Source: Parietichytrium sp. I65-24A
Taxonomy: Eukaryota; Sar; Bigyra; Thraustochytrida; Thraustochytriidae
Length of the DNA: 64,000 nt
Direction: 5' to 3'
Assembly (NCBI GenBank): GCA_012862575.1
Contig: BLSF01000011.1
Location: forward strand, 248,001-312,000
Positions 31,077-37,196 of this stretch are shown piece by piece. The translations under genes and the position numbers were made by a program. The notes beneath the pieces were generated by a model. The model ran no database searches. It saw only the letters and a list, made by a program, of their open reading frames with translations, and was not told the origin of the DNA. The number at the start of each line of letters is the position of its first letter. Position 1 is the first letter of the stretch.

Positions 31077-31110
31077 GATATATATATATATCAATATATA
31101 TATATATATC
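31077..31110. promoter_or_regulatory. TA-dinucleotide tract, possible core promoter
   Basis: Two TA repeat blocks separated by TCAA, about 35-68 bp upstream of the ATG at 31145. The position is suitable for a TATA-like element or easily melted promoter DNA, but it may simply be a microsatellite. Confidence 0.4.
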
Positions 31111-31144: not shown

Positions 31145-31861
31145 ATGCTCGCTCTGCGGAGATCGGCGCTGGGCGTAATGAGGCGTCAAGTGCCGTACTC
31201 TGGCGCATGGGGACGTTTGATGGCGACAGTGGCAGTCAAAGTGCCGCCCATGGGCGAGGCCGTCACGCAGGGCGATGTGGTGGAGTGGTTGCGCAAAGAG
31301 GGCGAGGCTGTTAAGGCCGATGATGTGATCTGCGTGCTGGAAACTGACAAGGTCACCGTCGACATTCGCGCTCCAGAAGCAGGCGTGCTGGCCAAGCTCT
31401 TGGCGAACGTGGACGACACCGTCAAGACTGATCAGGTCATTGCGGAGATCGACACTGACGCCAAGGCGTCCGCAAGTGGCGATGCTGCTTCTGCTTCTGA
31501 TTCGGCGTCGGAGTCGGAGTCGAAAGCTGCGCCATCAAAGAAAGAGGCAGCAGGAGAGTCGGAGGCGAAGGATGAAGCAAACGCCGCTGAGGACCACGAG
31601 CTGCACCTTGCGCCTCCCAGAGAACCACTTATTCATTTCAGATACGGCAAGCGGGACGAAGAGCAAAAGGACAGTTCCAACGCGCAAACGCCTGCGCAGC
31701 CACAGGCAGCTGCCGCTCCAGCTCCAAGGAGTAGCATTCCGGTTCCAGCTGGCCCAAATACGAAGACTGTGTACGTAGACTTATCGCCGGATTACGGCCG
31801 GCTTCCACCTATGACGGAAGAAGAAGCGCTTCGACTGCAGCTGGGCGGAGCTGATCCTTAA
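31145..31861 (+). CDS. Mitochondrial lipoyl-domain protein fused to Kgd4/MRPS36 (E4)-like tail
   Basis: 238 residues. A basic, hydroxylated N-terminus (MLALRRSALGVMRRQ, to about 26) looks like a mitochondrial presequence. Residues 28-104 are a 2-oxoglutarate-dehydrogenase-type lipoyl domain (VKVPPMGEAVTQGDVVEW) with the lipoylation site ETDKV at Lys69. No E3/E1-binding domain and no acyltransferase core follow, so it is not an ordinary E2. Instead, after an Ala/Ser/Glu-rich linker, residues 158-170 (PREPLIHFRYGKR) and 213-236 (LSPDYGRLPP, then EEEALRLQLGG) match the two conserved segments of Kgd4/MRPS36, the adaptor that joins E3 to the E1-E2 core in the eukaryotic 2-oxoglutarate dehydrogenase complex (human: PHTPLIRFPDRR, and LPQKYRRK with EEMEFIQRGG). 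It probably acts in that complex. The start is the first Met of the presequence; an upstream in-frame codon at 31112 is TTG. Confidence 0.85.
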   Translation: MLALRRSALGVMRRQVPYSGAWGRLMATVAVKVPPMGEAVTQGDVVEWLRKEGEAVKADDVICVLETDKVTVDIRAPEAGVLAKLLANVDDTVKTDQVIAEIDTDAKASASGDAASASDSASESESKAAPSKKEAAGESEAKDEANAAEDHELHLAPPREPLIHFRYGKRDEEQKDSSNAQTPAQPQAAAAPAPRSSIPVPAGPNTKTVYVDLSPDYGRLPPMTEEEALRLQLGGADP

Positions 31862-32265: not shown

Positions 32266-33374
32266 TCAGGCATCAGAGGAAACGAAATCCTGTTCGGTAA
32301 ATTCCAGTCTACAAGAAACCCCAACATCGGTCTGATTCCTCCAAACTAATCTGCGAGAGTGACTACGTCTTCGACCACTTATCTCTGTATTTGTTCAATG
32401 AAAGAGCACAAAATCCCTCGCTGCCAATCTCATGCTATGCCTCTGCTCATACCCTGCACTCCTGTAGTGACGCTATCACTTGGCAGTTTTTTCTACCAAC
32501 GGTAATGCATTCTCCGTTACCAGTATTCAGTAAACGACGACCAGTCCGTGAATTACAAAGTGACCGTTTCGACCAATCCGCTCACAGTCAACTTGCCATG
32601 GTCATATGATATAATTAACAGGCCCAATCAAAATTGGAAAATGTGGCACCGGTAAAAGCTCTTCCATCCGCTCCTTCCTTCCTTCCTTCATGCAAAAGGC
32701 TTCCTTCGTCTTTGGAGATCCCGTCAAAAGTGGAGCAAATCTGGAAGTGAGTTGGTGATAAACTGTACTTGTAAAAAATTACAGTTACTGTTCATGTAAA
32801 ATAAGTCAAAGCGTCACGGTTGACCTGAATTCTAAATACTGAATTCTGAATTCTGAATTCTGAATGAGAGCAGCCCTTGAAGGCAAGTAGGTGGCACGAT
32901 GACAGCGAGATGTGCTGCGCGTTGTCGAGTATTCGCGAACGGTACGGACAGTGAGTACAAAGAGCACAGAATACCGGTAAACGCAAATGCCTCACTCAGG
33001 CTTCTTCTGGTTGCTGGAACTAACTGGAACTGACTTGTGAGAGAGCATCGACTGGTGGGGAGGGGAATAAATGGGCGGAGGGAACGAACAGTGAAAGCGG
33101 CACAGGTTTGGGGTGCCGTAGCTCCGTCTAGCTCGTTCTCGTTTGCCTCCCTGCATGCATATGCATGGATGCCTGCCTACCTGCCTGAGCGACGGGTCGA
33201 AGGAGATAGTTAGCTTGCTTGCACATTGTGGCAAACCTCACGGTCTCTGAGACCCTCCAACTACCAACACCACGGAGCGCCGACCCATCCTTACATCGCA
33301 GAGGACCGGACTAGCTCTGAAGTGTCCGGCATCTCCATCCTACGATCTAAAATGTAATAGCTTTGCTTTTTTTA
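32266..33374. repeat. 1.1-kb direct repeat, copy 1
   Basis: Starts TCAGGCATCAGAGG and ends in the poly-T after AAAATGTAATAGC. About 98% identical to copy 2 by eye, with scattered substitutions and several small indels (near 32450, 32525 and 32575). Contains a (GAATTCT)n stretch (about 32828-32862), a TTCC repeat and a GCATGCATATGCATG near-palindrome. No gene. Confidence 0.92.
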
Positions 33375-33375
33375 N
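33375..33375. other. Ambiguous base (N) at repeat junction
   Basis: The only N in the window lies exactly where copy 1 ends and copy 2 begins, after a poly-T run, which points to an unresolved assembly join. Confidence 0.95.
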
Positions 33376-33376
33376 A

Positions 33377-34501
33377 TCAGGCATCAGAGGAAACGAAATC
33401 CTGTTCGGTAAATTCTGGTCTACAAGAAACCCCAACATCGGTCTGATTCCTCCAAACTAATCTGCGAGAGTGACTACTTCTTCGACCACTTATCTCTGTA
33501 TTTGTTCAATGAAAGAGCACAAAATCCCTCGCTGCCAATCTCATGCTATGGCTCTGCTATGCTCTGCTCATACCCTGCACTCCTCGTAGTGACGCTATCA
33601 CTTGGCAGTTTTTTCTACCAACGGTAATGCCTTCTCCGTTACCAGTATTCACAGTCAGTAAACGACGACCAGTCCGTGAATTACAAAGTGACCGTTTCGA
33701 CTGCTCACTGCCAGTGTCAGTGAGTCAACTTGCCATGGTCATATGATATAATTAACAGGCCCAATCAAAATTGGAAAATGTGGCACCGGTAAAAGCTCTT
33801 CCATCCGCTCCTTCCTTCCTTCCTTCATGCAAAAGGCTTCCTTCGTCTTTGGAGATCCCGTCAAAAGTGGAGCAAATCTGGAAGTGAGTTGGTGATAAAC
33901 TGTACTTGTAAAAAATTACAGTTACTGTTCATGCAAAATAAGTCAAAGCGTCACGGTTGACCTGAATTCTAAATACTGAATTCTGAATTCTGAATGAGAG
34001 CAGCCCTTGAAGGCAAGCAGGTGGCACGATGACGGCGAGATGTGCTGCGCGTTGTCGAGTATTCGCGAACGGTACGGACAGTGAGTACAAAGAGCACAGA
34101 ATACCGGTAAACGCAAATGCCTCACTCAGGCTTCTTCTGGTTGCTGGAACTGACTGGAACTGACTTGTGAGAGAGCATCGACTGGTGGGGAGGGGAATAA
34201 ATGGGCGGAGGGAACGAACAGTGAAAGCGGCACAAGTTTGGGGTGTCGTAGCTCCGTCTAGCTCGTTCTCGTTTGCCTCCCTGCATGCATATGCATGGAT
34301 GCCTGCCTACCTGCCTGAGCGACGGGTCGAAGGAGATAGTTAGCTTGCTTGCACATTGTGGCAAACCTCACGGTCTCTGAGACCCTCCAACTACCAACAC
34401 CACGGAGCGCCGACCCATCCTTACATCGCAGAGGACCGGACTAGCTCTGAAGTGTCCGGCATCTCCATCCTACGATCTAAAATGTAATAGCTTTGCTTTT
34501 T
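33377..34501. repeat. 1.1-kb direct repeat, copy 2
   Basis: Offset of 1111 bp from copy 1 at the left end, growing by about 16 bp through small insertions. Same order of internal motifs as copy 1. Ends AAAATGTAATAGCTTTGC followed by unique sequence. Confidence 0.92.
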
Positions 34502-34850
34502 AAATAGAAAACATCAACCTTACAGCTCGTAGCAGTGCTCCAGATTGTAAGCACGACAAGCCTTACGACCGGTCGCCCTGAGGGGAGAGGGGGGAGAGGC
34601 GCAATACGGCCAACTGCCTAACAAACTTCCAACATTTGACCGCTTGGAAGAAGGAAACGGGAATCTGCCGCCTTCTCCACACTCTTTCGACCTCGGTTTG
34701 GTACATGCACTCGCGCACTGGCAAGTGTCCGCGAGGTGATTTCAGAGCGCTGGCGACTTTGGCGGAGCAGGGGATTTGGGTGGCAGGGACTGGGTGTTTG
34801 TGCAGCCAGAGAACGCGGCGGTGGCCAAAGACAACAGCAAGGCGGGAAGT

Positions 34851-37196
34851 ATGGTGAACTCTTCCAGCATCTTGGAGTCCATAAAGCGCAAGGAGTCTTT
34901 TAAGCAAAGGGGCTTGAAGAAACCTGGAGATGCGCCGTTAACTCTCGAGCCGCTGCTGGAGGAAGACGGCGCAGGGAGTCTAGAGGATGAGAGCCTCCAA
35001 GCGTATATGCTGGAGGAAATGACGAACAACGTCACTTCCTCGGCCCGTTCAAATACTTCATCGAGCAAGTCTTTGCCCAAGGTGCGACCCGGGGCAGTAG
35101 TCCCCGTTCAGAAATCTCCCGCAGATTCCCCCAAACAGAGCTCCTGTGATGACCTTGACGGGGAGGAGCGCGATCAGGTTGCGGACCTTGCAAACCCGAC
35201 CAGAGACCGCCCAATGACATTAACCGAGAAAAGATGGGCCAAAATTAGGGTCGCGGCAAAAACAATTGGGAGTCTCAAGCAAGTGGAAAATGATCTTCGG
35301 CTGTACGGAGCGAAACACGAAGAGGAAATGATGGCCGACCCAAACGACCCAAGATACTACACGAATGACGCTTCCAAGAATACAAAATGGTACATCTTAC
35401 TCCCCACGAACCGATTTCGCAGGATTTGGGAGCTGCTGATCATTTTCATGCTATTCTACGTCGTGGTGACCGTCCCTGTGCGCGTGTGTTTTGATATTGT
35501 GCCTACGGACTCTGCGGCAGATTTTGACACGGCAGTTGACATACTTTTTATTCTCGACGTCGTCATCAACTGTTTTTGTGCCGTAGTTCTGTCCAATGGA
35601 GATCTCGTCGTAGACCAAAAGACCATTATCATATTGTATGCAAAGGGCTGGATGTTTCTGGACGTTGTCGCATCCATTCCGTTTTACCAGTTCTTCGAAA
35701 GCGACTTGGAGACCGCACAATTGAATCGCTTGAGCAAGATTGCCCGTCTTCCGAAACTCGTTCGACTCATCCGTCTTTTGCGACTGCTGAAACTCCTGCG
35801 CGTTGTGCGTCTTGTGCGGTACTTCAACCAATGGGAAACCGTAAGCTCTGGACTCAATGTGGGGATGACGCGCATGTTCAAGGTTACATTCGGAGTGTTC
35901 ATGGTGACGCATTTAATCGGATGCTTTTGGTACCTCACATCTTGGGCTGGGCAAGATGGACTGCAGCCTGATTCCTGGGTCGTCCGGCACGGCATTCAAG
36001 ACGATAATTCCATGACCAAGTACCTCACAGCTGTCTACTGGAGTTTTTCGACTCTCACGACGGTCGGTTTCGGGGACATCTCTGCGCGAACCAATGTTGA
36101 GAGAGTGTTTAGCATCATCTGCATGGTTGTTGGTGTCACATGGTACGCTTTTGTGATTTCCACGATATCATCCATTATGGCAATGTTTGATCGGCGTAAC
36201 GCAGAAGTCAAGAGAAAGCAAAGACTTATTCTCGAATTCATGCGGGAAACCAAGACGCCTTGGCAACTTCGAAGACGCATCTTGGCGTACTTCAACTTCC
36301 TGTCATCTCGCGAAAATCTTGAAAGTGACAGCAACGAGATGGAGAAGGTGCTCTCAATGCTCAGCACACAGCTTCGAACGGAGGTCACTTTACACGTTCA
36401 TCGAAACCTCATTCCACAGATTCCTTTCTTCGACAATAAGACGCCACAGTTCATTGCTGCGTGCGTAACTCTTCTCAAGCCGCTGAGATTTCAAGCCGGG
36501 GACTACATCTCCACCCGCGGCCAACACGCGGATGAGATGTACTTTTTGCTGAGTGGAAGAGCCATCGTGGTTCTGCCTAGTGGCAAAAAGTTCAAGTCAA
36601 TCGTCAAAGGCTCCTACTTTGGGGAAATTGGATGCATGCTCTCTGAGTTGCACCGCGTTTCTATCGTCGCTGCCAACGATTGCGAGATTTGTGCGCTGTC
36701 AAAACAAGAACTCAAGGATCTGATGGCCGATTTCCCTGATGTTGCGAACGAAATTCGCCAAACTGCCAAGAAGAGAATCGAGCATCTGAACCACAAGGAC
36801 GGCGATGAGGAGAAGAGCGGCGAGAATCGTGAAGAGCGGTCAAACAACAATATTACCACCAGTTTCCCTGGGGCTTCGTTTGAGCAGAGCGAGGAGGTCG
36901 AGGAGAAGGAGCACTTGCGGGAGAAGCTACGAGCGGACGCCAAACGTACCAACTCGCCTACAACTGGTTCAGTTGGGTCCGGGCTGATTGCAACCGCGTC
37001 TAGCAATTCGATTGGTGGGGACTCCGCTTTCGAACAGTACCTGGATCAAGGCGATACTGAGAGTGGACTCAACTTGAAGTTACTGCGCATGGAGACTACC
37101 ATGGATGCGCTCCGCGGAGAGAATCGTGAGCTGCGCAACTCATTAGAATCTATGCGGCAAATGTTGTTGCAGATTCAAAATGCTGTGTCCAAGTAA
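34851..37196 (+). CDS. CNG/EAG-like potassium channel with canonical S4
   Basis: 781 residues from the first in-frame ATG (MVNSSSILE). Six-transmembrane voltage-gated-type channel: S1 at about 190-208, S2-S3 to about 285, S4 at about 296-326 with basic residues every third position (RLPKLVRLIRLLRLLKLLR), and a pore loop STLTTVGFGD (GFGD at 406-409). S6, a C-linker and a cyclic-nucleotide-binding domain (about 540-650) follow. The phosphate-binding cassette FGEIGCMLSELHRVSIVAA keeps the arginine that contacts the cyclic phosphate. The C-terminus is acidic and ends in a short coiled coil (MDALRGENRELRNSLESMRQ), suitable for tetramer assembly. K+ selectivity is expected from GFGD, with cyclic-nucleotide gating or modulation possible. 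It is a distant paralogue of the channel at 20694-22805, which has a poorer S4 and an altered cassette. Confidence 0.9.
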   Translation: MVNSSSILESIKRKESFKQRGLKKPGDAPLTLEPLLEEDGAGSLEDESLQAYMLEEMTNNVTSSARSNTSSSKSLPKVRPGAVVPVQKSPADSPKQSSCDDLDGEERDQVADLANPTRDRPMTLTEKRWAKIRVAAKTIGSLKQVENDLRLYGAKHEEEMMADPNDPRYYTNDASKNTKWYILLPTNRFRRIWELLIIFMLFYVVVTVPVRVCFDIVPTDSAADFDTAVDILFILDVVINCFCAVVLSNGDLVVDQKTIIILYAKGWMFLDVVASIPFYQFFESDLETAQLNRLSKIARLPKLVRLIRLLRLLKLLRVVRLVRYFNQWETVSSGLNVGMTRMFKVTFGVFMVTHLIGCFWYLTSWAGQDGLQPDSWVVRHGIQDDNSMTKYLTAVYWSFSTLTTVGFGDISARTNVERVFSIICMVVGVTWYAFVISTISSIMAMFDRRNAEVKRKQRLILEFMRETKTPWQLRRRILAYFNFLSSRENLESDSNEMEKVLSMLSTQLRTEVTLHVHRNLIPQIPFFDNKTPQFIAACVTLLKPLRFQAGDYISTRGQHADEMYFLLSGRAIVVLPSGKKFKSIVKGSYFGEIGCMLSELHRVSIVAANDCEICALSKQELKDLMADFPDVANEIRQTAKKRIEHLNHKDGDEEKSGENREERSNNNITTSFPGASFEQSEEVEEKEHLREKLRADAKRTNSPTTGSVGSGLIATASSNSIGGDSAFEQYLDQGDTESGLNLKLLRMETTMDALRGENRELRNSLESMRQMLLQIQNAVSK

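Follow-up and report, generated by a model that had tools for sequence, protein, structure and literature searches.

A lipoyl domain joined to a Kgd4/MRPS36-like (E4) tail in a thraustochytrid and its relatives, a putative E3BP-like subunit of the 2-oxoglutarate dehydrogenase complex

Introduction

To our knowledge, the described proteins of the Kgd4/YMR31/MRPS36 family, also named E4 or E3BPo, carry no lipoyl domain. In this study, we ask what is encoded by a gene of Parietichytrium sp. I65-24A in which a lipoyl domain and a tail resembling that family stand in one reading frame, whether this tail is indeed related to E4, and what such a protein would do in the 2-oxoglutarate dehydrogenase complex (OGDHc). 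The window referred to below is the whole stretch of DNA that was analysed, 64,000 nucleotides of contig BLSF01000011.1, and the 238-residue lipoyl-E4 fusion protein encoded in it is called P0001.

Passages of Hevler et al. (2023, PMC9974300) report cross-links of N-terminal residues of MRPS36 to E3 and of C-terminal residues to E2o in bovine and mouse heart mitochondria; they also put the size of MRPS36 at about 11 kDa and describe eukaryotic E2o as devoid of an E3-binding domain. A review (PMC8146983) states that OGDHc activity in human cells was not increased by transfection with MRPS36, so that even the E4 role is open to dispute.

Results

The gene and its lipoyl domain

The features of the gene and its product are as follows.

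31078..31109, + strand: AT dinucleotide repeat, 35 bases 5' of the start codon
31145..31861, + strand: lipoyl-E4 fusion gene, a single uninterrupted frame of 238 codons plus stop
31145..31225, + strand: residues 1-27, mitochondrial presequence-like N-terminus
31232..31450, + strand: residues 30-102, lipoyl domain of E2o type (Pfam Biotin_lipoyl PF00364, E 1.3e-21)
31349..31351, + strand: codon of Lys69, the expected lipoylation site in ETDKV (invariant in the 40-sequence alignment)
31457..31609, + strand: residues 105-155, Ala/Ser/Glu-rich flexible linker (composition, low pLDDT)
31616..31654, + strand: residues 158-170, first E4 segment PREPLIHFRYGKR, counterpart of the E3-binding N-terminal part of MRPS36
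31781..31858, + strand: residues 213-238, second E4 segment LSPDYGRLPPMTEEEALRLQLGGADP, counterpart of the E2o-core-binding C-terminal part of MRPS36

An earlier note on this DNA, made from the letters alone, had described a 238-residue single-frame gene with a presequence-like N-terminus, a complete E2o-type lipoyl domain bearing Lys69 in ETDKV, and a flexible Ala/Ser/Glu linker, and all four were borne out. The frame, stop included, fills 31145-31861 of the forward strand. Its first 27 residues hold five Arg/Lys and no Asp/Glu, an Arg-rich composition free of acidic residues that suggests mitochondrial targeting. The lipoyl domain is supported by the Pfam match, by the AlphaFold model, with pLDDT of 92-97 in the blocks covering residues 31-100, and by Foldseek, in which this model matched lipoyl and biotinyl domains, with 1ghj, the lipoyl domain of 2-oxoglutarate dehydrogenase, at rank 7. 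Ala, Ser and Glu together make up 33 of the 51 linker residues, and pLDDT in the linker mostly falls below 50 (disordered). Among the matches listed, P0002-P0008 are close full-length relatives, and P0004-P0008 are colinear with P0001 at 42-51% identity over 90% of the length; P0008 comes from Mucochytrium quahogii, and P0005 is an MMETSP transcript ORF marked complete. Such colinear relatives, the transcript ORF included, argue against the frame being an artefact.

With regard to the type of the lipoyl domain, the turn ETDKV is identical to that of the E2o of the same genome, where the E2p turn reads ETDKA, and in the lipoyl-domain tree the domain lies outside the E2p clade (support 100/100). 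The E2o label rests on this turn and this tree, because a search of PDB sequences with the full-length protein ranks a pyruvate-dehydrogenase E2 first (9y7v, E 3.1e-25), above the highest-scoring E2o (9njt, E 9.5e-15). At E up to 10, P0001 has no match to the acyltransferase domain (PF00198) or to the E3_binding domain (PF02817). All five residues of the ETDKV turn are invariant across the 40 aligned fusions, and each of the 42 fusions retains the lipoyl lysine. Elsewhere in the genome, contig C83 (133516-133911; L005) encodes a lipoyl-like domain and, after it, a SAM domain (Pfam SAM_1, E 1.1e-9); the turn of the former reads ETTDYVYD and has no acceptor lysine, so loss of this lysine does happen in the genome of P0001.

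Two other observations concern the window itself. A direct duplication of about 1.13 kb lies at 32825-34364, and an 806-residue frame at 34776-37196 has a GFGD filter motif and was judged by eye to look like a potassium channel gated by voltage or cyclic nucleotides. The parts of the duplication are the following.

32992-33234 and 34122-34364, - strand: near-identical frames of the duplication (frame list)
32825-32865 and 33962-33995: CTGAATT arrays, one beside each duplicated frame

Relationship of the tail to E4

Both Kgd4/MRPS36 segments that the earlier note had read in the tail are present at residues 158-170 and 213-238. In the first, P161 and F165 are invariant and I163 nearly so (20-sequence alignment), and the AlphaFold model gives it intermediate confidence; in the second, E227, G234, G235 and A236 are invariant (40-sequence alignment) and a helix is predicted at 225-232. 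By analogy, the first segment would bind E3 and the last the E2o core.

The profile check that the same note had proposed for residues 150-238 alone gave a divided outcome, since Pfam Kgd4-YMR31 (PF10937) matched neither P0001 nor the isolated tail at E up to 10, whereas a profile built from the tails of five relatives scored these residues at 45.3 bits. That profile comprises P0260, which exceeds the Pfam cut-off, and P0219, P0028, P0011 and P0061, which fall below it (E 0.00078-0.019), and it holds no member of the clade of P0001. As controls, the best shuffle reached 13.1 bits (997 scored of 999 given) and the best E2 decoy 5.4 bits (151 scored of 155 given).

The metagenome protein P0260 is the strongest link, as it bears both domains above the Pfam cut-offs on a single chain: Biotin_lipoyl at E 1.1e-13, and Kgd4-YMR31 at 27.4 bits against a cut-off of 22, covering profile positions 16-116 of 116. 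Its HKPLIRFRYGKRD closely resembles REPLIHFRYGKRD of P0001, and the two tails share 33% identity over 79 aligned columns in a pairwise comparison. P0219, with a lipoyl domain alongside, scores 21.5 bits for Kgd4-YMR31, within half a bit below the cut-off. Over the 40 aligned fusions, PF10937 matched five at E up to 1 and none above the cut-off.

Other tail profiles gave P0001 44.8 bits (25 tails), 58.7 bits (nine non-green tails) and, from 16 green-algal tails alone, 12.2 bits against 7.3 for the best of 999 shuffles. When run over the 519 window frames of at least 60 residues, the 25-tail profile scored the P0001 frame at 40.2 bits and the runner-up at 5.9, and the 16-tail green-algal profile hardly separated it (8.0 against 6.2 for the next). 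These bit scores are not fully independent, as the training tails came from family-seeded searches; the Pfam matches of the relatives are independent of those searches. Against PDB sequences, the tail as a single sequence found just two chains of RAP-domain proteins (E 0.97 and 5.6), and the tail profile found no match. On this comparison of sequences, we take the tail of P0001 to be homologous to Kgd4/MRPS36, through its relatives and not by a direct Pfam match, and the claim that an E2o-type lipoyl domain is fused to such a tail is supported by the two domains of P0260 and its resemblance to P0001.

Distribution of the fusion

The first search for relatives gave 449 proteins at E up to 0.001, of which the best 120 were used. 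A profile search with 13 fusions gave 1095 proteins at E up to 1e-6 of 7997 scored; here, too, the best 120 were used, so that more fusions may exist. Under a strict pattern, the tail motifs occur in 40 of the 226 proteins collected, P0001 included, with both segments in 38 and the last alone in two, and all 40 match Biotin_lipoyl. With P0258 and P0260, added from 85 tail-only matches, at least 42 of 311 proteins are lipoyl-E4 fusions, and so the search for the fusion in relatives, which the earlier note had recommended, succeeded. Their sources are thraustochytrid-like, ochrophyte-like and green-algal, and the named carriers among the matches listed include Chlorella vulgaris, Parachlorella kessleri and Symbiochloris irregularis. 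The E2 catalytic signature was found in none of the 42, and the spacing from the lipoyl lysine to the first tail segment ranges from 70 to 111 residues (median 92). P0002 and P0003 have two tandem lipoyl domains ahead of the E4 tail. Since P0061, P0160, P0224 and P0260 start inside the lipoyl domain, they are probably incomplete. Several fusions are labelled 'E2 component' by their sources, and this naming may explain why they stayed unnoticed.

The 85 tail-only matches were also considered as stand-alone E4. By eye, many resemble exon pieces of green-algal fusions, several of them starting with the end of a lipoyl domain, and these were not counted as stand-alone E4. P0240, P0255, P0270 and P0295 look stand-alone and are candidates; P0240 was judged from its first 45 residues and its motifs.

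Related components in the genome

The genome searched comprises 42.5 Mb in 172 contigs and contains four acyltransferase genes. The separate E2o that the earlier note had advised looking for is present on contig C20, with one lipoyl and one catalytic domain; E3_binding has no match in it, the genome's E3_binding matches being confined to E2b (C4) and E2p (C39). An E2o that lacks an E3-binding domain of its own would need a tether. Two E1o-type genes were recognized by their C-termini (C36 and C23), E3 candidates lie on C22 and in four other places, and the lipoylation genes lipA and lipB lie on C86 and C3, respectively.

As for a second E4, the P0001 tail as a query of the genome returned itself and one match at E 0.37, a search that a diverged E4 could escape; the stand-alone E4-like P0295 as a query returned nothing, not even P0001, which again means that a diverged E4 could be missed. 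The absence of any PF10937 match over the whole genome is uninformative because none of 14 control genomes gave a match either.

Three further loci were observed. The lipoyl domain of the E2o (C20:467855-468976; L002, L009) has an end branch of 1.27 against 0.12 for the arm of P0001, two lengths that are not strictly comparable because close relatives are present in the tree for P0001 but not for the E2o. At C5:185384-185899 (L003) lies the gene of a lipoyl-only protein of pyruvate-dehydrogenase type, with ETDKATVDF, a Lys/Pro/Ala linker and a short tail containing YEDLYGHTLMRRP; its frame shows no catalytic or E3-binding match, and the protein may be a counterpart of P0001 in the pyruvate dehydrogenase complex. 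A second pyruvate-type E2 at C21:109050-110411 (L006, L011) has a lipoyl and a catalytic domain, with E3_binding not reaching E 0.001.

Discussion

Proposed function and its alternatives

We consider it likely that P0001 is an E3BP-like, non-catalytic, lipoyl-bearing E4 of OGDHc whose own arm can reach the E3 that this chain binds. We read it as E3BP-like because the order of lipoyl domain, E3-binding segment and core-binding segment is that of E3BP/PDHX. According to this proposal, the C-terminal segment would anchor P0001 on the E2o core, and the PxIxF...KR segment would hold E3. The N-terminal lipoyl domain, carried by the Ala/Ser/Glu linker and lipoylated at Lys69, would provide the complex with one more swinging arm, which would be charged and reduced there and then reoxidised by the E3 bound to the same chain. 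P0001 would thus act as E3BP/PDHX does, with a lipoyl domain, an E3-binding element and a core anchor, and without an acyltransferase domain. The observed support consists of the sequence, its domains, the tail homology via relatives, the conservation across several lineages, the E2o without E3-binding domain and the lipoylation genes, and from these we infer import, lipoylation, binding partners and catalytic use of the arm. An E4 chain could bind without use of its arm.

This last point leads to the best of the alternatives, an unlikely one, in which the tail is a true E4 tether and the lipoyl domain is merely docking or structural, parking on E1o, E2o or E3 to raise local affinity, with no turnover through Lys69. 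The E2o retains its own lipoyl domain, so an extra arm is not strictly required, and Skalidis et al. (PMC10203282) suggest that unloaded lipoyl domains act structurally, as an 'anchor'. Pure docking, however, would need neither the lysine kept in all 42 fusions nor the invariant turn of the 40 aligned ones, and the lipoyl-like domain on C83 indicates that the lysine can be lost in this very genome.

Even less probable is a role of P0001 as a mobile lipoyl carrier for a different 2-oxoacid dehydrogenase (that of pyruvate, of branched-chain 2-oxoacids or of 2-oxoadipate) or for several complexes. The two E1o-type genes fit this idea, as a 2-oxoadipate enzyme may share the core, and so do the lipoyl-only protein on C5 and the pyruvate-dehydrogenase E2 that heads the PDB matches of the whole protein; against it stand the turn, which is like that of E2o and not of E2p, the position outside the E2p clade, the descent of the tail from the OGDHc tether family, and the E3-binding domains that E2p and E2b already have. 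That the frame is misjoined or due to chance, with the lipoyl part and the tail on different transcripts or the E4 likeness merely compositional, is hardly credible, for although low-complexity Ala/Ser/Pro-rich linkers can yield false similarity, as the one shuffle at 13.1 bits illustrates, the frame is continuous, the tail scores far above shuffles and E2 decoys, and colinear relatives come from independent sources, including the transcript ORF P0005 and Mucochytrium quahogii.

Origin of the lipoyl arm

For the lipoyl-bearing E4 that we prefer, the origin of the arm was approached with lipoyl-domain trees of 77 columns, which are few, and 25 of the 42 fusions entered the first tree and 22 the second. 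A single clade of all E4 lipoyl domains was rejected (AU p 0.0116 with 71 rows, 0.0137 with 59 rows). The 59-row tree left out P0019, P0219, P0258, P0260, P0129, P0138, P0141, P0160 and P0152, as well as every other protein from the genome of the window; its additions are P0006, P0124, P0134 and P0206. Lineage labels of unnamed metagenome proteins were inferred from similarity, and the source codes Picsp_1 and Galph1 presumably stand for Picochlorum and Galdieria.

In the second tree, in which long branches meet, green-algal E4 arms stand beside green E2o arms (all green rows 71/84, not starred), and stramenopile-like E4 arms stand with stramenopile-like E2o arms (one side of a branch with 88/74, not starred). 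The clade of P0001 is supported at 100/98 with 71 rows and 100/99 with 59 rows, and a single clade of thraustochytrid-like and ochrophyte-like E4 domains was not rejected in the 59-row tree (p 0.259). The first tree is less clean: in it, five second lipoyl domains of stramenopile-like E2o are separated from the stramenopile group, P0129 has one domain among the green rows, and P0019 and P0258 have E4 arms that lie beside green E2o.

This pattern suggests that the arm was captured repeatedly from the host's E2o, or that gene conversion occurs between both genes. As a tentative proposal, which we find plausible without favouring it, OGDHc has repeatedly rebuilt an E3BP-like subunit, the E4 having taken (or exchanging) the lipoyl domain of its own lineage's E2o independently in stramenopiles and green algae. 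If true, an arm tied to E3 would have a kinetic or regulatory value that is missing from animal- and fungus-based models of OGDHc. As a separate observation, several E2o proteins (P0122-P0128, which except for P0123 are from Phytophthora, P0132, P0141, P0147, P0148 and P0162) have two lipoyl domains, with no E3-binding pattern in them and no PF02817 among their listed domains.

Comparison with known systems

Like Kgd4/YMR31/MRPS36, P0001 ends with the first and then the second conserved segment and is expected to tether E3 to the E2o core; unlike these proteins, it has a complete E2o-type lipoyl domain ahead of the tail. The E4 of Chaetomium thermophilum is reported (PMC10203282) to form the N-terminus of a chain that is annotated as holocytochrome c synthase. 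With E3BP/PDHX of the pyruvate dehydrogenase complex, P0001 shares the order of modules and the expected lack of acyltransferase activity, whereas it has a short E4 segment in place of the folded E3_binding domain, a short C-terminal segment and not an inactive catalytic domain as its anchor, and an E2o-type lipoyl domain. P0001 would resemble E3BP in its action, yet it is not a member of E3BP/PDHX, having neither PF02817 nor PF00198. Bacterial E2o, too, combines a lipoyl domain with a subsequent E3-recruiting element in a single chain and in the same module order, but P0001 has no E3_binding or catalytic domain match. The P64k-type dihydrolipoyl dehydrogenases (1gjx, 5u25) likewise place a lipoyl domain beside E3 and outside E2; they are bacterial, with the lipoyl domain fused to E3 itself, and are not known to have tether segments.

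The earlier note knew of no described protein with such an architecture, and none was found in the openly licensed literature: among the openly licensed papers listed by the searches, no title or abstract deals with a lipoyl-bearing E4, and no lipoyl-E4 fusion is described in portions of the article text of PMC9974300, PMC10203282, PMC7050145, PMC8146983 and PMC13311838. In PMC9974300, the word 'fused' is absent and 'fusion' occurs once, as part of an instrument name. The parts are known; their combination appears to be undescribed, and the family wider than one genome.

Conclusions

The recruitment of E3 to the mitochondrial OGDHc has been worked out only lately, with proteins of animals and fungi. 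If E4 bears a lipoyl domain in algae and protists, eukaryotes would differ in the subunits that make up the complex, in how many swinging arms it has and perhaps in the path that electrons take to E3. The fusions thereby offer a natural test of whether an E3-tethered arm alters the flux through OGDHc, with E3BP as a clear comparison.
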